Origin: Roseateles sp.
GTDB taxonomy: Bacteria; Pseudomonadota; Gammaproteobacteria; Burkholderiales; Burkholderiaceae_C
Length of the DNA stretch: 55,091 nucleotides
Direction of reading: 5' to 3'
Assembly (NCBI GenBank): GCA_019234295.1
Contig: JAFALK010000014.1
Location: forward strand, 1 to 55,091
The notes under the pieces were generated by a model. It was not told the origin of the DNA. It was given only the letters and a program-made list of their open reading frames with translations, and did no database searches. The translations under genes were made by a program, and so were the position numbers. This document shows, in pieces, positions 5,106 through 51,942 of the stretch; the first letter of the stretch is position 1, and each line of letters begins with the position of its first letter.

Positions 5106-5831
5106 CTAGGGTTTACCAGGGCTCCCGCCGTACCGGTCTTGCTCGGCCGCCTGCAGCACGGCTTCGCGCCAGAGCTTGCCCGGCAGGAACGTACGCAGCT
5201 GCTCCATGGCCTTGTCCACCAGCCGCGGATCGATCGCGTGCCCGATGCCGGGCAGCACGTCGGCCGTGACGTCGGCACCTAGGGAAACCAGCTCGCGCGC
5301 GGCGCTGACGATGGGCTGATAGGGCAGCACTTCGTCCTGCATGCCGTGCAGCAAGTGCACGCAGACGTCCTGCGGCGCGGCCTCGGGCAGCCAGGCATAG
5401 GCACCCGAGAGGCCGATCACGCGGCCGGCGAGACGGGCTTGTGCCTGCACGGCCTCGAGCGACATGATGGCGCCCTGGGAGTAGCCGACCAGGGCGACCA
5501 GGGGCCAGTCGAGCTCGAAATGTCCGGCCCATTGGCGGACCCGGGCGACGAACCCGGGCAGGGCCTGCTTCACCTGCGCTGCGATGACCGCGGGGCTGCG
5601 GTCCAGCATGGAGAACCATTGCCAGCCGGGGCCGCACTGCGGGTCGTCACAGCGTTCGGGCCCGTTGAGGGAAACGATGGCAGCCTGCGGATACTGGGCG
5701 CGCAGGGCGGCGGCCAGTGGCGCCATCTGTGCGCCGTCGCCGCCCACGCCGTGGCAGAGCAGGAACAGCAGCTCGGTCTTGCCGGTGGCGGGCAGCTCGA
5801 CCAGGGCGTGGGAGTCGGGGAATGCGCTCAT
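5106..5831 (-). CDS. YpfH-type serine esterase
   Basis: A 241-residue cytoplasmic alpha/beta hydrolase of the phospholipase/carboxylesterase family. The oxyanion region LLCHGVGGDG is at about 24-33. The nucleophile elbow GYSQG at 116-120 puts the catalytic serine at 118. Asp166 in HGMQDEVLP and His198 in GIGHAID complete the triad. Natural substrates of the YpfH branch are not settled; short-chain esters are typical in vitro. The start is an ATG at 5831, and the RDD gene ends 12 bases upstream on the same strand, so it may be the last gene of the histidine kinase-RDD-esterase run. Confidence 0.85.
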   Translation of the reverse strand: MSAFPDSHALVELPATGKTELLFLLCHGVGGDGAQMAPLAAALRAQYPQAAIVSLNGPERCDDPQCGPGWQWFSMLDRSPAVIAAQVKQALPGFVARVRQWAGHFELDWPLVALVGYSQGAIMSLEAVQAQARLAGRVIGLSGAYAWLPEAAPQDVCVHLLHGMQDEVLPYQPIVSAARELVSLGADVTADVLPGIGHAIDPRLVDKAMEQLRTFLPGKLWREAVLQAAEQDRYGGSPGKP

Positions 5832-5843
5832 GGGCGCATTGTC

Positions 5844-6296
5844 TCAGCGGCGGATAACCACGGTCCCGGCAATCTTGTCATGCCAGCCCTGCTTGCGGGA
5901 ATCGAAAGCCACCCAAATCAGGCCCAGGCCCAGCGGGACCGTGGAGACGTAGTAGCCGACGTAACGCAGCAGTGCCTGGCCGGTGCTCAGCCGCTTGAGG
6001 GTCTTGGCGTCGACGACCTCGGCGCCGATCACGCGCTTGCCTGGCGTGGCGCCGAACTTGAGCCAGCAAAACACCACGGCCACGGCGGGCAGCAGGTGGT
6101 TGACGAGCAGCTCGGGGCCGCTGGGAAGGCTCCAGCCCAGGGCGGACTGGCCGAGAGAGACGGTGGCGTGCACGCCCAGCAGCGCGCCCAGCAGGCCAAA
6201 CACCACCAAGACCACGATGGTGTCGATGAGGGCTGCGCCGACTCGGGCCCAGAAGCCCACGTACTTGATATTGGCAGTGGTGCTGCTGTCATCCAT
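5844..6296 (-). CDS. RDD family membrane protein
   Basis: A 150-residue inner-membrane protein with the RDD layout: GFWARVGAALIDTIVV at the start with the conserved Arg and Asp, a second hydrophobic segment at about 65-80, the GATPGKRVIG motif at about 82-91, and a last segment ending in WHDKIAGTVV. Some RDD proteins have been linked to ion transport, but most are uncharacterised. The start codon lies inside the last codons of the upstream histidine kinase gene (8-base overlap), which suggests translational coupling. Confidence 0.85.
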   Translation of the reverse strand: MDDSSTTANIKYVGFWARVGAALIDTIVVLVVFGLLGALLGVHATVSLGQSALGWSLPSGPELLVNHLLPAVAVVFCWLKFGATPGKRVIGAEVVDAKTLKRLSTGQALLRYVGYYVSTVPLGLGLIWVAFDSRKQGWHDKIAGTVVIRR

Positions 6297-9200
6297 GCGA
6301 AGACTCTCCTTCAGGAACGGTTCGACCGATCAGCCGCACCAGCGTCTGGCGCAGCTTCGGCGCATCCACGGGCTTGGTGAGGAAGTCATTCATACCGGCG
6401 GCCAGGGCCTCCTCGCGCTCGGAGACCAGCGCCGCGGCCGTGAGCGCGACGATGGGCAGTTCCCGGGGGCCGAAGCGCTTGCGCAGTTCGCGGGCCGTTT
6501 GGTGGCCGCCCATGACGGGCATCTGCACATCCATGAGCACGGCATCGAAGGGCCGGCCGGTGTCGGCCGCTCGCATCACGGCCTCGATGGCCTGGCGGCC
6601 GTCGTGGGCCTGGCCGACCACGACGCCCCATTGTTCGAGCTGGGCCACGGCAATCATCATGTTGACCGGATGATCCTCGACCATCAAGACGCGCAGCCCG
6701 CGAAGCTCCTTGGCCGGGGCGCTCGGGCCGGGCTCGAGGGCGGACACGGGGCGAAGGGGCGCCGCCGTGGGCAAGGGCAGTTCGGCCCAGAAGCTTGCGC
6801 CCTCGCCGAGCACGCTGCGCACGCCGACCTCGCCCTTCATCAAGCTGGCCAGTTCGCGGCAGATCGACAGGCCCAGGCCGGTGCCGCCGTAGCGCCGCGT
6901 GGTGGAGCTGTCCGCCTGCGTGAACGGCGTGAAGAGTTGCGGCTGGAGCTCCGCGGCGATGCCCGGGCCGGTGTCGCTGACCTCCAGCCGCACTCGGCCC
7001 GGCGCCGGGCATGTGACGCGCAGCACGACGCGGCCAGACTCGGTGAACTTCAGTGCGTTGCCCAGATAGTTGGAGAGGATCTGGCGCACGCGTGTCGGGT
7101 CGCCCACGACGCGCCCCGGCACCGCGGGGTCGACCTCGACGCAGAACTCCAACCCTCGCGCGTGTGCCAGCGTGGCGTAGGCGAGGCGGATTGTGGTGAG
7201 CATGTCCGCCAGCGAGAAGGGCAGGCTCTCCAGCGAGAGACGGCCGGCCTCGACCTTGGAGAGGTCCAGAATGTCGGAGATCAGGCTGGTCAGGCCTTCG
7301 GCGCTCTCGAGGAGCTGGTCCACGTATTCGGCGCGGGTGTCTTCGGACAGGCCGCGCTGCTGGAGCATCCGCGCCAAGCCCAGCATGCCGTTGAGCGGTG
7401 TGCGCAGTTCGTGGCTCGTGTTGGCCAGAAAGGCGCTCTTGGCGCGGCTGGCGGCCTGGGCGTCGTCCTTGGCCTGGGCGAGGGCGGCCTCGGTGCGGCG
7501 CCGCTCAGTCACGTCCTCCATGATCCAGATGGTGCCGTCCTCGAGCTTTCCGGGATACACGCTACGCCCGAGCAGCCGGCATAGGAACGGTGTGCCGTCC
7601 TGCCGCTGCATCTCGATCTCGAGCTCGACCCGTTCGCCGGCGTGCAGCCTGGGCCGGACCCGCTCGGCGACGGCTTTGTAGTCGTCCACGCCGGGCCAGA
7701 TCGCGCTCAGGTGCTTGCCGGCCAGCGAGCCCGCGTCCAGGCCCAGCATTTCGTCCACGAGCCGGTTGGCCAGCACGAAATGCTGGTCGCGCGTGAGCGC
7801 GATGCCGATGGAAGCATTGGCCAGGATGGCCTCTTGCACGAGCCGCGTGCGCTCGCTTTCGGTGACGTCGCGTGTGTTGGTCACCGTGTAGTGCTTGCCA
7901 TCGGCTTCAAAGATCGCCGCCGACATCACGGCGCTGATGGTCTTCCCGTTCTTGCCCACGAACTCGCAGGCCCGGTCGACGACGCGGCCCTCGTCGCGCA
8001 GGGTGCGCGAAACATCGGCGAGCTCGGCGGGGTTGCGGTAGATGCCAAGTTCGGCCGGTGTGCGCCCAATCACCTCTTCGCGCGAATAGCCGGTCACTTC
8101 CTCGTAGGTTTTGTTGACCATGATGTAGCGGCCCGTCTCCAGCTCGTTGAGCGTGACGATGTCGGGACTCACGGCCACCAGGTGCGAAAGCAGGCTCTCC
8201 GAGCGGCGCAGCGCCTCCTGAGCTTTGGAAGTCTCCGTCTGGTCCGTGTAAAAGGAGAGCGTGGCCGGACCGTCGGCATTGTTCACGCGCACGCAGGTCT
8301 CGGCCACGAGACGGCGGCGTTTGGCCAGGGTCAGCAGGCGGAATTCGTCGACCGGCAGCATGCCGCCCACGGGCATGGCCTCGATGCGGCTGCTGCGCTG
8401 GCGCGCACGTTCAGCATCGCCGGGCTCGTAGTGCGAGAACAGGTCCTGGCCGATCATGCTCGAGCGCTGCGTGTAGCCGAACATGGCCATGGCGGCCGGA
8501 TTGGCGTCGATCACGCGCCCCCAGCGGTGCAGCAGCAGCGGCGAGGGCGAGCGACGAAACAGCTCGCGGTAGCGCGTCTCAGTGATCTGCTTGGTCTGCT
8601 CGGCCCGCACCTCGGCTGTCACGTCGCGGCCCACGCCCCAGTAGCCGCGGAAGTTGCCGGCTGCATCGAAGCGCGGCTCGCCGCTGATGGAGACATGGCG
8701 GGGCTGGCCGTCCTTGCCCAGGCGCCGGGTCACCAGCCCGTGGAAGGCGCGGTGAGATTCGAGATCGGCGCGGTGGGCGTCCATTTCCTCGTCGCTGAGA
8801 CCCGGGGCTTCGAGCTCCCAGGGCGTCTTGCCCACGCGCTCGACCAGGTCCAGGCCAGAGCGGCCGGGCAGGTCTTCCGTCACGTGCGTGAAACGGTAAT
8901 CGCGGTCCATCTCCCAGTAGAAGTCGGCCGCCATCGCCAGCAGCTCACGGAAGCGCACGTTTCGCTCGGCGGCCGCCTGCGTGGCGCGCTGCACCATGCG
9001 CAGCACGCTGGCCCCGATCAGCAGACCCATGGCCACGAGGCCGACGTGGGCGGCGAGCCGTGCCGCGCCCGCGGGCTTGCCCAGCAGCGGCACGAGGCCG
9101 TTCAACTCGGCCATCCACAAGCCCGTCAGCGCTGCCAGGGACATCAGGGCGAGCGCGACCCCCGCGCGCAGACCCAGCATGCTCGTGCCCAGGGCCACCA

Positions 9201-9582
9201 TGAGGCTCAACATGCCCAGATTGATGGATTGCAGGCCCATGCCGTGGCTCCACGCCACCACCAGGGCCAGCACCATCACCAGCAGCACGCACAAGAGCGC
9301 ACCCTGGGGGCCGAAGCGGCGCGGCAGCTTCCACAGGAATAGCGGGCCCAGCAGGCCGATCACCGTGGCCAGCACGGGGGCCAGCGTGCCGGCGACGGAC
9401 TCTTCAGGGCGGCGCAGCAGCCACAGCACCACGGCACTGATCAAGAAGATCACCGAACTGGCCGCAAAGAAGACCTGCACGGCGCGCGCGCGCACCGTGC
9501 TCTCCAGCAGGGCTTGCCGTTCGCCCAGGGTCACTTCCGGGGAGACGAGGCTGCTGAGGTCGTCGCTGAAATCCCTTTTCAC
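6289..9582 (-). CDS. Membrane hybrid histidine kinase with several PAS domains and a receiver
   Basis: A 1097-residue hybrid sensor kinase. About six hydrophobic segments cover residues 33-200. They are followed by four PAS-like blocks (about 205-335, 340-455, 465-575, 585-700), a HisKA domain with SHELRTPLNG and phosphoacceptor His724, an HATPase domain with SDTGPGI and GGTGLGLSI, and a C-terminal receiver with Asp1018 in MDVQMPVMGG. There is no HPt domain and no separate response regulator beside it, so the phosphate must pass to partners elsewhere or the receiver may be autoregulatory. The start is GTG with AGGA just upstream. The 3' end overlaps the RDD gene by 8 bases. The signal is unknown. 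Confidence 0.9.
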   Translation of the reverse strand: MKRDFSDDLSSLVSPEVTLGERQALLESTVRARAVQVFFAASSVIFLISAVVLWLLRRPEESVAGTLAPVLATVIGLLGPLFLWKLPRRFGPQGALLCVLLVMVLALVVAWSHGMGLQSINLGMLSLMVALGTSMLGLRAGVALALMSLAALTGLWMAELNGLVPLLGKPAGAARLAAHVGLVAMGLLIGASVLRMVQRATQAAAERNVRFRELLAMAADFYWEMDRDYRFTHVTEDLPGRSGLDLVERVGKTPWELEAPGLSDEEMDAHRADLESHRAFHGLVTRRLGKDGQPRHVSISGEPRFDAAGNFRGYWGVGRDVTAEVRAEQTKQITETRYRELFRRSPSPLLLHRWGRVIDANPAAMAMFGYTQRSSMIGQDLFSHYEPGDAERARQRSSRIEAMPVGGMLPVDEFRLLTLAKRRRLVAETCVRVNNADGPATLSFYTDQTETSKAQEALRRSESLLSHLVAVSPDIVTLNELETGRYIMVNKTYEEVTGYSREEVIGRTPAELGIYRNPAELADVSRTLRDEGRVVDRACEFVGKNGKTISAVMSAAIFEADGKHYTVTNTRDVTESERTRLVQEAILANASIGIALTRDQHFVLANRLVDEMLGLDAGSLAGKHLSAIWPGVDDYKAVAERVRPRLHAGERVELEIEMQRQDGTPFLCRLLGRSVYPGKLEDGTIWIMEDVTERRRTEAALAQAKDDAQAASRAKSAFLANTSHELRTPLNGMLGLARMLQQRGLSEDTRAEYVDQLLESAEGLTSLISDILDLSKVEAGRLSLESLPFSLADMLTTIRLAYATLAHARGLEFCVEVDPAVPGRVVGDPTRVRQILSNYLGNALKFTESGRVVLRVTCPAPGRVRLEVSDTGPGIAAELQPQLFTPFTQADSSTTRRYGGTGLGLSICRELASLMKGEVGVRSVLGEGASFWAELPLPTAAPLRPVSALEPGPSAPAKELRGLRVLMVEDHPVNMMIAVAQLEQWGVVVGQAHDGRQAIEAVMRAADTGRPFDAVLMDVQMPVMGGHQTARELRKRFGPRELPIVALTAAALVSEREEALAAGMNDFLTKPVDAPKLRQTLVRLIGRTVPEGESSHG

Positions 9583-10538: not shown

Positions 10539-11047
10539 ATGCACATCCTGACAACGGCAAGGCTCAGCCTGCGCGAATTCACGCCCGCCGATGCGGCTTT
10601 CATCCTCGAACTGCTCAGCGACCCCGACTGGCACCGCAATATCAACAACCCCAATGTGCAGGACCAGGCCGGCGCGCTGGCCTGGATGGAGGGCCGGCTC
10701 TTCGAGCCGTATCGGCGCCATGGCCACGGCTTCTGGGCCGTTGAGAGGCTCGACTCCGGCGAGCTGATCGGCATGTGCGGGCTCTTCAAGCGCGACGCCC
10801 TTCCCCTGCCCGACGTGGGCTACGCCTTCCTGCCACGTGGCCGCGGCCAGGGGTTCGCGCGCGAGGCGGCGGCGGCCTGCCTGAGCCATGGACACGAGAA
10901 GCTGGGCATGACAGCCATCTTGGCCATCACGGCGGTCGACAACCCGCCTTCGGTCCGTGTGCTGGAGAGCATCGGCATGGTCGAGCAGGGCGTGGAATTG
11001 CTGGCCGGCTACGAGGAGCCGAGCCGGGTCTTCCGTTGGGAGCCCTG

Positions 11048-11048
<1 letters not shown>
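10539..11048 (+). CDS. GNAT family N-acetyltransferase (first of pair)
   Basis: A 169-residue acetyltransferase of the RimJ/RimL-like branch. It opens with TARLSLREFTPADAAFI, the usual beta1-alpha1 signature. The acetyl-CoA pyrophosphate loop is in FLPRGRGQGFAREAA, and the C-terminal NPPSVRVLESIGM block is typical. The substrate cannot be told from sequence. ATG at 10539 is chosen over a long upstream extension that would run across the pyrF promoter. The stop overlaps the start of the next acetyltransferase by one base (TGATG), so the two form a coupled operon. Confidence 0.85.
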
Positions 11049-12990
<1,942 letters not shown>

Positions 12991-45911: not shown

Positions 45912-46395
45912 GCATGAACTGATCCACCGGATTGCCTTGGCCCTGATCCGGCGCAAGGAGCGGCTGGGCACGGCCGAGTCCTGCACGGGCGGCCTGATCG
46001 CCGCGGCCTGCACCGAGCTGCCGGGTTCGAGCCAATGGTTCGAGCGTGGCGTGGTCAGCTACACGAACCAGGCCAAGACCGAGCTGCTGGGCGTGCCGCC
46101 GGGCCTGATCGAGACCTGTGGCGCCGTCAGCGGAGAGGTGGCCCAGCACATGGCGCGCGGCCTCATGGCGCATGCGCCGGTGGATTGGGCCGTGGCCGTC
46201 ACGGGCATTGCGGGTCCCACGGGTGGCAGCAGCGCCAAGCCGGTCGGCACGGTCTGGCTGGCGCTCGCGCACGACGGCAAGCTGCTGCGTGTGTGGCAGG
46301 AGTTCTTCGGCGGCGACCGGCACGAGGTGCGCATCGCCACGGTGCGCGCGGTGCTCAGCGCGCTGTGCGAGGCCGTGGAAGACCGCGACGCCTGA
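45895..46395 (+). CDS. pncC: CinA C-terminal type NMN amidohydrolase
   Basis: PncC deamidates nicotinamide mononucleotide in pyridine nucleotide recycling. The 166-residue protein is the stand-alone CinA C-terminal domain: GTAESCTGGLIAAACTELPG holds the catalytic Ser/Thr region, RGVVSYTNQAKTELLGV follows, and TGIAGPTGGSSAKPVGTVWLA is the last core motif. The start at 45895 (MLFPDE) is likely; ATG at 45886 is in frame as well. It is the third gene of thiL-pgpA-pncC. Confidence 0.92.
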   Translation: MLFPDEHELIHRIALALIRRKERLGTAESCTGGLIAAACTELPGSSQWFERGVVSYTNQAKTELLGVPPGLIETCGAVSGEVAQHMARGLMAHAPVDWAVAVTGIAGPTGGSSAKPVGTVWLALAHDGKLLRVWQEFFGGDRHEVRIATVRAVLSALCEAVEDRDA

Positions 46396-46420
46396 GCGTT
46401 TGAAGAGCGCCCGAGGCTGC

Positions 46421-48808
46421 TCAGGCGTCCAGCCTGGCGAAAATCGAGTCGGTCAGCGGCGTGCCATCGGGCAACTGCCAATCGCTGGCCCAGCTCAGCA
46501 GCTCTGAGGCCGGCATGGGCTTGGCCATGAAGTAGCCCTGTGCCTCATCGCAACCCAGGCGGGCCAGCAGCTGCCAGGCGCCCGAGGTCTCCACGCCCTC
46601 TGCCACGACGGAGAGGCCGAGGTTGTGGGCCAGCTCGATGGTGGAGCGCACGATCTTCGCGTCGTCGAGATCGCGCTCCATGCCCATGACGAAGCTCTTG
46701 TCGATCTTGAGTTCGTCCACCGGCAGGCGCTTCAGGTAGGCCAGCGAGGAGTAGCCAGTGCCGAAGTCGTCGATCGAGAGCTTGAAACCCATGTTCGAGA
46801 GCTGCTCCAGCGTGCTGAGCGCGCGCTGGGGGTCGTCCATGATGGCGCTCTCGGTGATCTCCAGGCACAGGCTGCCGGGGGGGAGTGCAAATTCACTGAC
46901 CAGGGCCTGAATCGCGCTCGGCAGGCCCGGGTCCATCAGGTCGCGCGTGGAGAGATTGACCGAGACCTTGAGCGGCATGTCACTCGCGTGGGCCGAGGCC
47001 AGGAAGCGCGCGGCCTCGGCGATCACCCAGCTGGTGAGCGTGCGGATGAAGCCGGTCTGCTCGGCAAAGGGGATGAAGGCCATGGGTGGCACCATGCCGC
47101 GCTGCGGATGCTGCCAGCGCACGAGGGCCTCTGCGCCAATCACGCGGCCCTCGGCTACGCCGATCTTGGGCTGCATGTACAGGCACAGCTCATTGCGCTC
47201 GATGGCCTGGCGCAGCTCCGACAGCAGGGACAGCGAGTCCTGGCTGCCCGCATCGAGCGCGCTGCTGTAGACGAGCTGGCCGCAGCGGCGCTGCTTGGCC
47301 GCATACATGGCCAGCTCGGCGCGGGCCAGCAATGCCCGGGCATCCTGCCCGTGCTGAGGCGCGAGCACGATGCCGATGCCGGCACCGAGGTCCACGGTCT
47401 GTGCCTCGATGCGCAGCGGGCGTTCGAAGTCGCGCAGGATCTCCTGCGCGGACTCGATGGCGCGGTCCTCGTCCGCGCCCTCGATCATCAGCGCGAATTC
47501 GTCGCCGGCCAGGCGTGCCAGCATGCGATGCGGCCCGCTGCACAGCGCCGAGAGCCGCTCGCCCACGCGCTGCAGCAGCGCGTCGCCGAACTCCTGGCCG
47601 AGCACGTCGTTGACATGCTTGAAGCGGTCCAAGTCCAGCATCAATACCGCCAGCGGCCGGCCGGCGGCACAACACTCCTCGAGCCGCGCGCGCAGTTGCG
47701 CGCCATTGGGCAGGCCGGTCAGTTCATCCCAGTAGGCCAGGCGGTCGACCTTGGCGGTCTGCGCGCGAATGCCTTTGCGCATGGCCTCAAAGGCATCGGC
47801 CAGATCGCCCACCTCGTCGCGCGAATGGCGCTGGACCGGCGTTGCGTAGTCGCCGCTGCCCAGTCGCGCGGCCGATTCGCTGAGCGACTTGATCGGCCCG
47901 CTGATGGCGCGCGCGAGCAGGACGCTGAGCAGGGCGAAGACCAGGACGCCGAGTGCCGTCAGCCCCAGCAGCGAGAGCTGGAGGTCGCGAAACGGTGCCA
48001 CTGCCGCATCGAAGGAGCGCAGCAGCACCACGCCGATCTGCGGCTCGCCGGCGCGGCCCAGCGGCACCAGGTGGCCGCGCCATTGCTCGCCTTGGATGTG
48101 GACCGCGAAGTTCTCGGGATCGGGCGGCACCTGCGCCGCGATCTGGGCCGAGTCCGCGGCCCCGAAGCGGCTGACGAGCGGCTGCCAGCCCGCCTCGCGC
48201 CGCACCACGATGGCCTGCAGCTCCGAGAGCGACTTCAGATCCTCCAGCAAGGAGGCGTCGAGCGCGAATCCCATCAGCACCCAGCCGCGCGGCGCCGGCG
48301 TGCGTACGGGCTGGGCCACGACCTGGTAGGGTTTGCCGTCGAGCTGCACGAGTTGCGCGTCGTCCGCGGCGCTGCCGTCCACGCGTTTCTTCAGCAGTTC
48401 CTGGAAGCGGCGCGCCTCGGGCCGCGTGGCCGCCACGAGGTTGAGCTCATTGTCGAAGTAGGCCACGACCGTAGCGCCGATGCGCTGGCCCTGGTTGGCC
48501 AGGGCATCCTGGATGGTCTCCATCGTGCCGGCCTCGGCCCTGGGCAGTGCGATGGTCTGCTTGAAGCCGTAGTCCTGGGCCAGCAGCGCGGCCGCATCGC
48601 GCCGCTTCTCGGCCTGCTGGGCCAGCAAGCGGTGGAAGACCTTCTCGCCCGTCTGCAGCTCGGCCGCGATGTCGTTGTTGGCATTGCGCGTGATCACGCG
48701 GTCGATCACCGCGAAGCTGGCCATCTGCACGACCAGCAGCAGGCTCAGGAACACGGCCACGATGCGGCCTTCGAGGCGGCGCACGTTCAAGAAGGCGGGC
48801 AGCTGCAT
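46421..48808 (-). CDS. Membrane GGDEF-EAL cyclic di-GMP protein
   Basis: A 795-residue bifunctional-type protein. A membrane segment at about 14-35, a periplasmic sensor domain (about 36-275) and a second segment (about 277-300) lead to a HAMP domain, then GGDEF and EAL domains. The cyclase signature reads AGDEF (434-438), a variant that is often active. The phosphodiesterase domain keeps Glu560 in GAEALVRW, ITESAI, IDDFGTGYSSL and KIDKSFV, so it should hydrolyse c-di-GMP. The start lies 15 bases after the truncated haemoglobin gene on the same strand, so both are probably co-transcribed. The periplasmic sensor could read the state of the exported globin or its ligand. Confidence 0.9.
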   Translation of the reverse strand: MQLPAFLNVRRLEGRIVAVFLSLLLVVQMASFAVIDRVITRNANNDIAAELQTGEKVFHRLLAQQAEKRRDAAALLAQDYGFKQTIALPRAEAGTMETIQDALANQGQRIGATVVAYFDNELNLVAATRPEARRFQELLKKRVDGSAADDAQLVQLDGKPYQVVAQPVRTPAPRGWVLMGFALDASLLEDLKSLSELQAIVVRREAGWQPLVSRFGAADSAQIAAQVPPDPENFAVHIQGEQWRGHLVPLGRAGEPQIGVVLLRSFDAAVAPFRDLQLSLLGLTALGVLVFALLSVLLARAISGPIKSLSESAARLGSGDYATPVQRHSRDEVGDLADAFEAMRKGIRAQTAKVDRLAYWDELTGLPNGAQLRARLEECCAAGRPLAVLMLDLDRFKHVNDVLGQEFGDALLQRVGERLSALCSGPHRMLARLAGDEFALMIEGADEDRAIESAQEILRDFERPLRIEAQTVDLGAGIGIVLAPQHGQDARALLARAELAMYAAKQRRCGQLVYSSALDAGSQDSLSLLSELRQAIERNELCLYMQPKIGVAEGRVIGAEALVRWQHPQRGMVPPMAFIPFAEQTGFIRTLTSWVIAEAARFLASAHASDMPLKVSVNLSTRDLMDPGLPSAIQALVSEFALPPGSLCLEITESAIMDDPQRALSTLEQLSNMGFKLSIDDFGTGYSSLAYLKRLPVDELKIDKSFVMGMERDLDDAKIVRSTIELAHNLGLSVVAEGVETSGAWQLLARLGCDEAQGYFMAKPMPASELLSWASDWQLPDGTPLTDSIFARLDA

Positions 48809-48823
48809 TGCGCTTGGCGTGGA

Positions 48824-49267
48824 TCAGCCGGCGGGAACGATGTCGCGCTTCATCGGTGCGAGCTGCTTGAGCAGCTCGTTCTTGGCGCCCGCGCTGACGC
48901 CTGCGGCGTCGAACTCCTCGCGCAGCATGTCCACGAGGGCGTCGAACTCGCTGGCACGAATATTCAGGCTCTGGTGCGCCCGGGCCATGGTCTCGCCTTC
49001 ATACTTGCAGCCGCCGCCCGAGATTGAGCAGATCTGCTGGACGATGCTGGCCTCCACCGTCGCGAGCTTCACGCCGTCGAAGCTGCGCTGGGTGCGCGGG
49101 TCATGCGCCGCGCGCTCGATAGTGCGCGTGATCACCTTGCTCACCGTGGGCTCGCCTCCAAGCCGGGCGTAGAGCGTGCTGTCGTCGGGCGGCGCTGCGC
49201 CAGCCGCCAGACAGATGCATGCAGCCAACACCGGCAAGCAGACGCTGCGCATTCGTTGCATTTCCAT
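48824..49267 (-). CDS. Exported group 1 truncated haemoglobin
   Basis: A 147-residue protein with an N-terminal signal sequence ending in AAGAAP (or a lipobox LAAC at 14-17). The mature domain is a 2-on-2 globin: LYARLGGEPTVSKVI at the start, RSFDGV, the QICSISGGGCKYEGETM stretch, and proximal His98 in MARAHQSLNI. Group 1 globins bind oxygen or nitric oxide, and an exported form is unusual. Cys80 and Cys87 could form a disulfide in the periplasm. AGGAG lies before the ATG at 49267; the longer open frame to 49540 runs into the divergent gene. It is coupled to the GGDEF-EAL gene. Confidence 0.88.
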   Translation of the reverse strand: MEMQRMRSVCLPVLAACICLAAGAAPPDDSTLYARLGGEPTVSKVITRTIERAAHDPRTQRSFDGVKLATVEASIVQQICSISGGGCKYEGETMARAHQSLNIRASEFDALVDMLREEFDAAGVSAGAKNELLKQLAPMKRDIVPAG

Positions 49268-49296
49268 CGAATCTCCTCGCGGCGTGGGATACCGAG

Positions 49297-49314
49297 CCGG
49301 TCGGCACGGACCGG
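49297..49314. promoter_or_regulatory. Inverted repeat in the globin/DUF3034 divergent promoter region
   Basis: CCGGTC and GACCGG form a perfect 6-bp repeat with a six-base centre, 30-80 bases from either start codon. It is a good candidate operator for joint control of both transcripts. Confidence 0.4.
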
Positions 49315-49329
49315 TCAGCACAGAATGGA

Positions 49330-49346
49330 CCACCACATGGTAGTGG
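49330..49346. promoter_or_regulatory. Second palindrome in the same divergent region
   Basis: CCAC and GTGG with near-symmetric inner bases around a short centre. It is an imperfect palindrome, 49 bases before the DUF3034 start. Confidence 0.25.
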
Positions 49347-49394
49347 CCGACTGTAGCGCCGCGCCTGCTCGTGACTCGGAAAAAGGCCGACAAC

Positions 49395-50267
49395 ATGTCT
49401 TTCAATGTGCGCTTGATTTCTCGCTCAGCCCTGGGAGTCTGGGCGGCGCTGTTGTGCGCAAGCCAAAGCTTCGCCGGGGACCGCGTGCTGGCCGCCTCGG
49501 GCGTGAGCCAGGTCGAGGGTGCGGCTGGCGGCGGCCTCACGCCCTGGGCCGTGATCGGCGGTGAGGGCAGCCGCGATCAGATCGGCGCCTCGGTCTACGC
49601 CACTCACCTGCGCACGCGCGGCGGCTACGAGCTCGACGCGCATGGCGTGGCGCTGGGCCTCTACGACACCGTAGAACTCTCGGCTGCGCAGTGGCGTTTC
49701 GGCCTCTCAGACACCGTGCCCGGCGCCAGCCTCAAAATGGACGTGCTGGGCCTGAAATGGCGCGTATTCGGCGATGCCGTCTTCGACGCCGATACGCCCT
49801 GGCCGCAGATCTCCGTCGGCGCGCAGTACAAGCACAACCGCGACATGTTCGTGCCGAATCTGCTCGGTGCCAAGCATCAAGACGAGATCGATCCCTATGT
49901 GGCCGCCACCAAGCTGTGGTTCGGTGCCGCCTGCGGCTTCAACCTCTTGACCAACCTGACGCTGCGCGCCACCCGGGCCAACCAGATGGGCCTGCTGGGC
50001 TTCGGCGGAGACCGCCACGACAGCCGGCGCATCGAGCCCGAGGCCAGCATTGCCGTGCTGCCGCGCGACGCTCTCGCCATCGGCGTTGAGTACCGGGCCA
50101 AGCCCAGCAATCTGAGCGCTGCGCCTGAAACCCGCGCGGCCGACCTCTTCGTCGCCTGGTGGCCCATGCGCCATCTCAGCGTGACGGTCGCCTGGGTGGA
50201 CCTGGGCCAGATCGCGAACAAGACATCGCAGCGCAGCAGCTACGTCTCGGTGCAGGCGCAGTTCTAG
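49395..50267 (+). CDS. DUF3034 family outer-membrane-like protein
   Basis: A 290-residue exported protein. A signal peptide (1 to about 28, ending SFAG) precedes a domain of alternating hydrophobic strands that ends in YVSVQAQF, with terminal Phe, as in outer-membrane beta-barrels. GGGLTPWAVIGG, ASVYATHLRTRGGYELDAHG and FFVAWWPMRHLS-like strands fit my memory of DUF3034. No function is established. It is divergent from the globin gene and converges with the cupredoxin-like gene, sharing a CTAG at the stops. It may be a porin or an anchor for this block. Confidence 0.82.
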   Translation: MSFNVRLISRSALGVWAALLCASQSFAGDRVLAASGVSQVEGAAGGGLTPWAVIGGEGSRDQIGASVYATHLRTRGGYELDAHGVALGLYDTVELSAAQWRFGLSDTVPGASLKMDVLGLKWRVFGDAVFDADTPWPQISVGAQYKHNRDMFVPNLLGAKHQDEIDPYVAATKLWFGAACGFNLLTNLTLRATRANQMGLLGFGGDRHDSRRIEPEASIAVLPRDALAIGVEYRAKPSNLSAAPETRAADLFVAWWPMRHLSVTVAWVDLGQIANKTSQRSSYVSVQAQF

Positions 50268-50845
50268 TCGCCGAGCGTCACGCTGGTCGTTCCACCTTCG
50301 TTGCCGACTGTCAGCGGGCGCGACTGCAACTGGTCGGTACGCAATGTGGCGTGCCACACCTGCAGCTCGTGGTCGCCGGGCGGCAGGTCGAGCGTGGCCT
50401 GGCCCTTGGCATCGGTGCGAGCGAACAGCGGCGTGTCCACCACGACGATGCGAGCGCTCATGCGGTCGTGGATGTTGCAGCCCAGGGTGGCCACTCCGGG
50501 CTTGTCGAAGGTCACCGGGGCGGCCGGCGTACCGGCGTAGAGCCTGATCTCGAAGGATTTGATCGGCGAGAAGGAGTAGACGTGGTGGCGCACCGTGTCG
50601 AAGTTCGGGAAGCTCACCGCCGTGCCGGTCTGCACCACGAGCAATTGGGGCGTGAACTGGCGGTCGCGCTGGCCCATCTCGGCCTTGGCACTCGTCGTGT
50701 GACTGGGCTTGCCGCGCAGTTCCACTGCCACCACCGCATCGACCAGGGGCTGGCCGGCGGCGTTCTTCACCTGCACGGTCCAGGGCAGTGCCTGAGCCGC
50801 AAGGGCGGGGAGCAGCAGCAGTGCAAACAGGGCGGGCTTCTTCAT
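50264..50845 (-). CDS. Exported cupredoxin-like protein (methylamine-utilisation type)
   Basis: A 193-residue exported protein with a signal peptide cut near AQA (about 19). A cupredoxin domain keeps a complete type 1 copper set: a His in TVRHHVYSF (87-88), Cys123, His126 and Met129 in GCNIHDRM. A C-terminal beta-sandwich (about 140-193; GQATLDLPPGDHELQVWH) resembles a carboxypeptidase-regulatory-like domain. Such proteins are often named methylamine utilisation protein, but no mau genes are here. It should carry electrons or copper in the periplasm. Its last base pairs overlap DUF3034; holA ends 20 bases upstream. Confidence 0.85.
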   Translation of the reverse strand: MKKPALFALLLLPALAAQALPWTVQVKNAAGQPLVDAVVAVELRGKPSHTTSAKAEMGQRDRQFTPQLLVVQTGTAVSFPNFDTVRHHVYSFSPIKSFEIRLYAGTPAAPVTFDKPGVATLGCNIHDRMSARIVVVDTPLFARTDAKGQATLDLPPGDHELQVWHATLRTDQLQSRPLTVGNEGGTTSVTLGD

Positions 50846-50865
50846 TGCGGGCCTGTCCTCAGGGT

Positions 50866-51942
50866 TCACAGGGCGCTCAGACTGTAGCGCGGTGCACGCG
50901 GGCCGGCGACGGTCTGGGCCAGCATCAGTGCGAGCTTGCGCAGGCCCATCCAGGGCTCGGCGGGCCAGTCGGGGTGGCGCAGGCCTTTGACGAGACCGTC
51001 GCAAATCTGTGCTGCCTGCACGAGGGGCGTGAGTGCACCGGCGCTCAGCGTCGGCGCCACGCGCTCAAAGATTTTTTCCTTGGCACCCCAGACGCGCGCC
51101 TCGCGCAAGGCCAGGGGCAGCGGCTTGCCGGCATCGAGCGCCTCGCGCACACGGGCCAGGGCGCGGATGTCTTCGGCCAAGGTCCAGTGCACCAGGACGG
51201 CGGCTTCGCCTTCGGCCTCCAGGCCGTCGAGCATGCGCAGGGCGCGGGCGAGCTGGCTGGCCAGCACGGCCTCGCTGAGCTTGAAGACGTCGAAGCGGGC
51301 CACGTCGAGCACGGCGGCCTCGATCTGCTCGAAGCTCAGCACGCCGGCCGGGTGCAGCAGGGCGAGCTTTTGCAGCTCCTGGTGCGCGGCGAGCAGATTG
51401 CCTTCTACGCGATCGGCGAAGAAGTCCAGCGTGCGCTGGCCGGCTTCGCCGTCTTCCACGCGCTGTTGCTGGCGGGCCAGGCGTTGGGCGATCCACTGGG
51501 GCAGGGCGCGGCGCTCGATGGGGTCCACGCGCACGGTGACGCCGTGCTGGTCCAGGGCCTGGAACCAGGCGCTGGACATCTGCGTCTTGTCCAGGCGCGG
51601 CAGGGTGACCAGCGTAAGCACGTCGGGCGGCAGTCCGTCGCAATAGCGCTGCAAGGCCTCGGAGCCGTCCTTGCCGGGCTTGCCCGAGGGAATGCGGATC
51701 TCGATGAACTGGCGCTCGGCGAACAGGCTCATGGCCTGCGAGGCAGCGATCACCGCCGACCAGTCGAAGGCATTGCCGGCGACGGTGAAGACCTGCCGCT
51801 CGCCATAGCCGTCTGCCTTGGCGGCGACGCGAATGGCGTCGGCCGCCTCCTGGGCGAGCAGGGGCTCGTCGCCGAAGACGGTGTAGACGGGCCGCAGCCC
51901 TTTGGAGAGCTGGGAGCCGAGGGCGTCGGGGCGGATCAGCAT
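50866..51942 (-). CDS. holA: DNA polymerase III delta subunit
   Basis: HolA is the wrench of the clamp loader that opens the beta clamp. The 358-residue protein shows the family N-terminus LIRPDALGSQLSKGLRPVY, GDEPLLAQEAADAIR, and the central EGNLLAAHQELQKLALL motif in the lid domain. It lacks a functional Walker A, as expected for delta. The ATG at 51942 is one base after the lptE stop, giving the leuS-lptE-holA operon typical of proteobacteria. Confidence 0.94.
   Translation of the reverse strand: MLIRPDALGSQLSKGLRPVYTVFGDEPLLAQEAADAIRVAAKADGYGERQVFTVAGNAFDWSAVIAASQAMSLFAERQFIEIRIPSGKPGKDGSEALQRYCDGLPPDVLTLVTLPRLDKTQMSSAWFQALDQHGVTVRVDPIERRALPQWIAQRLARQQQRVEDGEAGQRTLDFFADRVEGNLLAAHQELQKLALLHPAGVLSFEQIEAAVLDVARFDVFKLSEAVLASQLARALRMLDGLEAEGEAAVLVHWTLAEDIRALARVREALDAGKPLPLALREARVWGAKEKIFERVAPTLSAGALTPLVQAAQICDGLVKGLRHPDWPAEPWMGLRKLALMLAQTVAGPRAPRYSLSAL

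Follow-up and report, generated by a model that had tools for sequence, protein, structure and literature searches.

The window analysed here is a stretch of 55,091 nucleotides from Roseateles sp. (assembly GCA_019234295.1, contig JAFALK010000014.1), and it holds a group of four genes that encode a sensor protein with GGDEF and EAL domains, a truncated globin, a DUF3034 protein and a cupredoxin (Table 1). All four lie where an initial annotation had placed them, and the coordinates were confirmed. The globin gene lies upstream of the sensor gene, on its strand and at a distance of 15 bases; from strand and spacing we infer that the two are co-transcribed in the window. The DUF3034 gene diverges from the globin gene and converges with the cupredoxin gene, with overlapping stop codons. 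The cupredoxin gene stands apart from the sensor gene, 20 bases after another gene of the same strand, and may be regulated separately from the sensor.

Table 1. The four genes of the locus and the divergent intergenic region, in coordinates of the window.
Feature	Position	Strand	Remarks
Sensor-GGDEF-EAL gene	46421-48808	-	795 aa; Pfam match
Truncated globin gene	48824-49267	-	147 aa counted from ATG; Bac_globin match
Globin/DUF3034 divergent intergenic region	49268-49394	.	Imperfect palindrome by eye, ccaccacatggtagtgg
DUF3034 gene	49395-50267	+	290 aa; Pfam match
Cupredoxin gene	50264-50845	-	193 aa; type 1 copper ligand set

The control regions gave little in the way of common signals. No sigma-70 promoter-like site was found across positions 46300-51000, and no shared operator motif was found in 41 divergent globin/DUF3034 regions of relatives, which were compared for common 8- to 10-mers and in which the most frequent 8-mer occurs in 6 regions. 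FNR-like and sigma-54-like sites were seen in only 6 and 8 of the 41, respectively, with two mismatches allowed and without a shuffled control, and a loose NorR-like pattern matches all 41 and is therefore uninformative.

The sensor matches the Pfam profiles EAL (E = 2.1e-77), GGDEF (1.5e-33), HAMP (1.1e-13), dCache_3 (5.4e-9; 36.4 bits against a cut-off of 25.7) and CHASE4 (1.7e-6), and is a predicted inner-membrane protein in which dCache, HAMP, GGDEF and EAL domains follow one another. The model of its sensor domain has a pLDDT of 93.8 and the Foldseek neighbours DctB, CtaA and PctA, so that a dCache domain is predicted by profile and fold alike; the earlier claim of a periplasmic-type sensor domain coupled to a c-di-GMP enzyme is supported. 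The residues E560, R564, N618, E650, E653, D680, D681, K701, E737 and Q757, which make up the EAL catalytic set, are each kept in 65 of 65 sensors, whereas the GGDEF signature [GAS]G[DE]EF is found in only 32 of the 65 (as AGDEF in the window). Because the EAL residues are invariant and the GGDEF motif is not, the sensor is probably a c-di-GMP phosphodiesterase; this refines the initial annotation, in that the conserved activity would be hydrolysis by EAL.

The globin matches Bac_globin (PF01152; E = 2.7e-12, 47.4 bits against a cut-off of 21), its closest solved chains in a PDB sequence search are group 1 globins, and the proximal His98 is present in 117 of 117 sequences, all of which agree with its description as a group 1 truncated haemoglobin. 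A Cys80-Cys87 pair is nearly invariant among the same 117. The distal side is a different matter. The window globin has Ile50 at B10 and Ile75 at E11, and the corresponding positions hold L/I/M/V in 116 of 117 sequences and L/V/I/F in all 117; the polar distal residues of HbN, Tyr B10 and Gln E11, are not kept at positions 50 and 75 in this set. Judged by these residues, the globin is a divergent group-1-like subfamily and not the canonical ligand-binding type. Both the globin and the cupredoxin are predicted to be exported, from signal peptides judged by eye. Lipoprotein anchoring as a rule of the globin family was considered and set aside, a crude lipobox pattern being present in only 54 of 116 sequences.

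The full type 1 copper set noted earlier in the cupredoxin was found to be invariant among its relatives (His87 in 87 of 87; Cys123, His126 and Met129 in 88 of 88). The protein has no Pfam cupredoxin match, only CarboxypepD_reg below its cut-off, and against PDB sequences it reaches plastocyanin at a non-significant E of 0.74; its relatives carry names such as 'methylamine utilization protein' or plastocyanin. The DUF3034 protein matches its own profile (PF11231) at E = 3.3e-98, with 328.7 bits against a cut-off of 25, and its model has 12 strands in the fold of an outer-membrane barrel, ending in a C-terminal Phe. We regard it as a predicted 12-strand outer-membrane barrel, in keeping with the barrel-like protein first proposed. 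A PDB sequence search with DUF3034 gave no significant match, and no described function was found for it in a full-text literature search, in which the name turned up once in each of two open-access papers.

The constancy of this grouping was followed in an even draw of 398 Pseudomonadota genomes, the window's own included, of which 39 contain DUF3034. The other 38 genomes supply 38 loci, at which DUF3034 and the exported globin are each present 38 times, the cupredoxin 32 times and the dCache-GGDEF-EAL sensor 30 times, and any fifth gene in at most 5. The globin subfamily (E <= 1e-42) occurs in 39 of 39 DUF3034 genomes and in 2 of the 359 others, namely G328 and G154, which have it without DUF3034. 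The sensor is encoded by 37 of the 39 and the cupredoxin by 38, each against 1 of 27 comparison genomes, which were hand-picked and non-random: G328 and G154, and 25 others chosen from the 359 without DUF3034 for the same family, the same order or weaker globin matches. Fisher tests on these genome counts ignore kinship, and the genome of the window is itself among the 39. The families also co-occur with DUF3034 genome-wide as unlinked copies. The sensor is absent from the locus in 8 DUF3034 genomes, of which 6 encode it elsewhere, in 5 of those 6 cases adjoining a cupredoxin gene; the other two, G019 and G078, have DUF3034 and the globin, and no such sensor was found in either genome.

In a larger set of 119 loci, partly redundant (the DUF3034 proteins of L050 and L115 are identical), globin and DUF3034 are the most constant part (119 of 119). 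The presence counts are lower bounds, since loci cut by contig ends (L018 and L019, for example) were scored as lacking the missing part, and these cuts may also have inflated the number of changes on the tree; a broken second copy in G078 (L149) was excluded from every locus count, and a locus of G261 with a DUF3034 frame shortened to 186-193 codons (L148) was counted at loci and excluded from the tree. The four-family association persists at a median identity of 35-44% and in varied gene order (by profile coordinates, G< C< T< D> at L007 and D> T> C> G> at L123), in hosts that include Pseudomonas, Roseateles, Aquabacterium, Methylophilus, Rhodanobacter and Sphingopyxis. The four families are a unit conserved across alpha-, beta- and gammaproteobacteria. 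Conserved co-occurrence beyond close relatives, whose absence had been named beforehand as grounds for refutation, was thus found in the gene-neighbourhood counts. These counts also refute the view that the genes are accidental neighbours with no common function, which we consider scarcely conceivable: lineages do differ in gene order, and the order of the window recurs at no other of the 119 loci, but the association survives at such low identity, in varied order and in unlinked copies.

Two modules emerge within the unit, the cupredoxin with the sensor, usually adjoining, and the globin with DUF3034. The first pair shares a strand in all 69 loci that hold both, most frequently with a 4-base overlap, and the second is fused into a single reading frame in a Rugamonas genome (L078). 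In G154 the neighbour of the cupredoxin is a dCache-HAMP receptor whose output part is a Ser/Thr kinase in place of GGDEF-EAL; the copper protein thus tracks the sensor domain and not the output. Among 12 further sensor-domain loci, 4 have the sensor without an adjoining cupredoxin; 3 of these 4 sensors are second copies, and the two that were scanned (L158 and L160) are GGDEF-only. The sensor is missing at 49 of the 119 loci, and at 14 of these 49, genes for an ECF sigma factor and/or an anti-sigma factor of the ChrR or RskA type lie beside the DUF3034-globin pair (L140 alone among the 38 even-draw loci, and 13 from a similarity-ranked named set). Because of these sensor-less loci, the globin and barrel can apparently work without an adjoining sensor. 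The 49 sensor-less loci, the 14 ECF loci among them and the separate cupredoxin gene of the window count partly against the initial interpretation.

We tentatively favour, at a little under an even chance, a reading in which the four proteins form one envelope relay, running from barrel and globin to cupredoxin to sensor and ending in lower c-di-GMP. The predicted outer-membrane barrel and the exported globin would be placed side by side where the outer membrane faces the periplasm, and would condition the periplasmic copper protein; the input would be a ligand of the heme, for example NO, or the redox state of the heme, passed on by electron exchange between heme and copper. In one redox state the cupredoxin would dock on its partner sensor at the dCache domain, and the EAL domain of that sensor would then lower c-di-GMP, so that the outcome would be c-di-GMP breakdown and departure from the surface. 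The four-gene set is likely to report envelope redox or gas conditions to the choice between settling and swimming.

NO as the input is suggested by its fit to the apolar heme pocket. NO-selective members of the H-NOX and NosP families have an aliphatic distal pocket, as does cytochrome c', a periplasmic heme protein; the latter is a four-helix c-type cytochrome with CxxCH, whereas the protein here has a globin fold without CxxCH. Gene association lends NO no support: the NO-defence gene nnrS occurs in 19 of the 39 DUF3034 genomes and in 17 of the 27 hand-picked others (Fisher p 0.32, kinship ignored). The surface unit reporting to c-di-GMP that was first proposed is upheld in part, as a conserved unit with a sensor-enzyme.

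A somewhat unlikely alternative is that the globin, cupredoxin and barrel detoxify or repair oxidant or NO damage, with the sensor, or in other lineages an ECF sigma factor, only coupling the set to behaviour or switching it on. The globin-DUF3034 pair as the most constant part and the 14 sensor-less loci with ECF or anti-sigma genes point that way, and ChrR systems are described as responding to oxidants. Yet the ECF set appears at only 1 of 38 even-draw loci, the adjacency of cupredoxin and sensor genes is left unexplained, and the apolar pocket lacks the polar distal residues on which oxygen-binding and peroxidase globins rely. Distinctly improbable is a transport set, in which copper or a small substrate would pass through a DUF3034 channel, the cupredoxin would store copper or act as its chaperone, and the sensor would report on the cargo. 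The structural neighbours of the barrel model (FapF, KdgM, NanC and COG4313) are channels, the copper ligands are invariant, and dCache domains usually bind small molecules, with which the neighbours of the model agree.

Several known systems resemble the proposed relay in part. In NspS-MbaA, the gene of a periplasmic protein lies beside that of a membrane GGDEF-EAL protein and the former acts through the periplasmic domain of the latter; NspS is a polyamine-binding solute-binding protein, and the partner here is a cupredoxin. YfiBNR and HmsCDE likewise have components at the outer membrane, in the periplasm and in the inner membrane and alter c-di-GMP upon periplasmic signals, with a redox link described for HmsC. 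The present set differs from both in its predicted phosphodiesterase with dCache, its DUF3034 barrel and its periplasmic partners, for which heme and type 1 copper sites are predicted. In YfiBNR the partners of a PAS-type diguanylate cyclase are YfiR-like and OmpA-like, and neither domain is among the Pfam matches of the four proteins. H-NOX and NosP are separate heme proteins encoded with c-di-GMP enzymes, but these have HNOB or FIST domains and no export signals, unlike the exported truncated globin here. Globin-coupled sensors such as DgcO also tie a globin to c-di-GMP turnover; theirs is a cytoplasmic protoglobin that is fused to the enzyme and binds O2 with polar distal residues, while ours is separate, exported and truncated, with an apolar pocket. 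Protoglobin, HNOB and FIST domains are all absent from the Pfam matches of the four proteins. No description of the four-gene grouping was found in the abstracts and passages searched, those of PMC3770913 included, and the words copper and cupredoxin are absent from the main text of PMC8846402, a review that takes a census of the stimuli and receptors of c-di-GMP.

The most specific form of the relay is a heme-copper wire that connects the outer membrane with the messenger, in which a barrel-borne, NO-selective globin would swap electrons with the type 1 copper protein, whose dCache-docked redox state would turn on c-di-GMP breakdown. We think it quite unlikely in all its parts; if true, it would be the first cupredoxin-gated second-messenger receptor and a periplasmic counterpart to H-NOX and NosP, and would give DUF3034 its first function. 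Should the broader relay be true, about one-tenth of the Pseudomonadota genomes drawn (39 of 398) would encode a path, so far unstudied, that leads from the outer membrane to c-di-GMP, and DUF3034, the 'methylamine utilization protein' cupredoxins and the exported globin subfamily would share one testable role.

The search for DUF3034, a predicted outer-membrane barrel, covered 398 evenly drawn Pseudomonadota genomes, the window's own included, and 14 named control genomes; it was present in 39 of the former and in none of the latter. The surroundings of the matches in the 38 other genomes were searched with profiles drawn for the most part from a different set, 80 named loci. This gave 38 draw loci, at one of which the DUF3034 frame is shortened. 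A 39th locus, L149 in genome G078, carries a second DUF3034-globin pair interrupted by stop codons and was excluded. Near DUF3034, the globin was found at all 38 loci, the cupredoxin at 32, the GGDEF-EAL sensor at 30, and all four families at 29. A profile-free clustering of frames of at least 100 codons returned the same four families, at 38, 35, 32 and 31 loci, and no other family in more than 5 of the 38 once frames overlapping the four genes were excluded. Since median identity in the draw is 44% for the DUF3034 proteins and 35% for the globins, the grouping is not a recently inherited stretch of DNA. The conserved co-occurrence that the initial annotation had put forward for a gene-neighbourhood count is thus borne out.

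The four families travel together even when they are unlinked. All 39 DUF3034 genomes have the globin subfamily (E <= 1e-42), as do 2 of the 359 others (G328 and G154), the next matches standing at 2.5e-31 and weaker, a gap that is partly built in because many profile rows come from these same loci. Against 27 hand-picked comparison genomes, the sensor domain occurs in 37/39 versus 1/27 (Fisher p 6e-15) and the cupredoxin (E <= 1e-40) in 38/39 versus 1/27 (p 4e-16), with kinship ignored in both tests and four weaker cupredoxin matches among the 27. Eight DUF3034 genomes of the draw have no sensor at the locus; six carry it elsewhere, and in five of these a cupredoxin gene abuts it there. Five of the six that lack the cupredoxin at the locus hold it elsewhere.

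Within the group, the cupredoxin and the sensor form one module. They share a strand at all 69 loci holding both, most commonly with a 4-base overlap, and the cupredoxin abuts the sensor at 8 of 12 further sensor-domain loci, the other four being L154 and three second copies. Two of these three second copies, L158 and L160, have GGDEF without EAL by scan. In genome G154, which has the globin and no DUF3034, the neighbour abutting the cupredoxin is a dCache-HAMP receptor with a Ser/Thr protein kinase at its end in place of GGDEF-EAL. It is thus the sensor domain, and not the c-di-GMP output, that the putative copper protein accompanies, a pattern that rests on one genome and is as expected of a signal-bringing partner. 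At L111 and L112, from one genus, a second dCache sensor copy lies immediately past the cupredoxin gene.

Across all 119 loci (G, sensor; C, cupredoxin; T, globin; D, DUF3034), gene order varies, with G< C< T< D> (33), C> G> D> T> (26), D> T> alone (25) and various others; G< T< D> C< occurs in the window alone. There the four genes lie where the initial annotation had placed them, two of the products being exported as judged from their sequences.

Coordinates of the four genes and of other features discussed
Sequence	Feature	Position	Strand	Remark
Window	GGDEF-EAL membrane sensor	46421-48808	-	
Window	Globin	48824-49267	-	15 bases upstream of sensor gene; export read by eye
Window	DUF3034 gene	49395-50267	+	Divergent
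Window	Cupredoxin	50264-50845	-	Converging; export read by eye
Window	Antisense open frame, 800 codons	46625-49027	+	Through sensor gene
L028	Unit beside ThiL-PgpA-CinA relatives	10789-12753		
L035	Unit beside ThiL-PgpA-CinA relatives	10789-12784		
L078	Globin-barrel frame, 434 aa	9500-10804	+	Rugamonas sp. A1-17
L163	Cupredoxin and kinase receptor	5529-9558	-	Genome G154

The flanking genes look like ordinary housekeeping genes, which we take to be ThiL, PgpA and CinA on one side and HolA, LptE and LeuS on the other. The window's cupredoxin and sensor frames are 1455 bases apart, the one clear exception to close spacing among the 69 loci. The cupredoxin sits beyond DUF3034, 20 bases past the end of the HolA frame, and may therefore be read together with leuS-lptE-holA; by this placement, cupredoxin and sensor need not share a transcript. 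A relative, L002, occupies the same site beside HolA, LptE and LeuS but keeps the usual arrangement, globin and sensor standing on either side of the cupredoxin. L028 and L035, from two other lineages, adjoin the ThiL-PgpA-CinA relatives at the DUF3034 end of the unit, versus the sensor end in the window. Antisense frames over the four genes recur in relatives; they appear to be a side effect of GC-rich codon use.

The other module is the globin with the barrel. They lie within 6.5 kb of each other at 119/119 loci, with other members of the four in between only in L026. In L078 the two are a single reading frame, with one signal peptide, the globin, a short linker and the barrel; at the fusion point the sister loci L071, L076 and L081 have the globin stop codon, then a spacer, then a separate signal peptide for the barrel. 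Had a sequencing slip joined the frames, this second signal peptide should still be there; that it is missing argues for a real fusion, in one genome.

This pair can stand under two kinds of control. At 14 of the 49 sensor-less loci (L043, L053, L054, L056, L057, L060, L062, L064, L066, L069, L071, L075, L076 and L140), all or some of an ECF set, a sigma factor with an anti-sigma gene of the ChrR or RskA type, lie within about 3 kb, often along with a PF03640 lipoprotein; 13 of the 14 are named loci, a set ordered by similarity, and the even draw gives 1/38. The hosts include Arenimonas, Dyella, Aquimonas, Duganella and Oleiagrimonas. L065 and L077 (lipoprotein alone) and L061 (weak ChrR match) were left out of the count. 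In L054, L057, L060, L062, L064, L066, L075 and others, the ECF sigma factor, the anti-sigma gene and the lipoprotein lie upstream of DUF3034, the place taken in other lineages by the c-di-GMP sensor. None of the 70 sensor-bearing loci has the ECF set nearby, the ChrR-like gene of L003 being 7.6 kb off. A quickly built DUF3034 tree (116 rows) requires a minimum of 7 changes in whether the locus has the sensor and a minimum of 9 in the ECF context, counts that contig-end cuts may inflate. The two kinds of control keep alive the alternative of a stress defence, in which globin, cupredoxin and barrel would detoxify or repair envelope damage and the sensor or the ECF sigma factor would only couple the set to behaviour or switch it on.

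As for the signal, NO fits the globin pocket, but the NO-defence protein NnrS is not commoner with DUF3034 (19/39 DUF3034 genomes versus 17/27 hand-picked genomes without it). Redox state, copper, CO and an organic oxidant are other candidates.

In overall plan the predicted unit is similar to YfiBNR and HmsCDE, and also to H-NOX and NosP, which partner c-di-GMP enzymes. In the main text of one review (PMC8846402) the words "copper" and "cupredoxin" are both absent, and the globins in the passages considered are protoglobins. By its predicted domain content the four-gene unit belongs to none of these systems.
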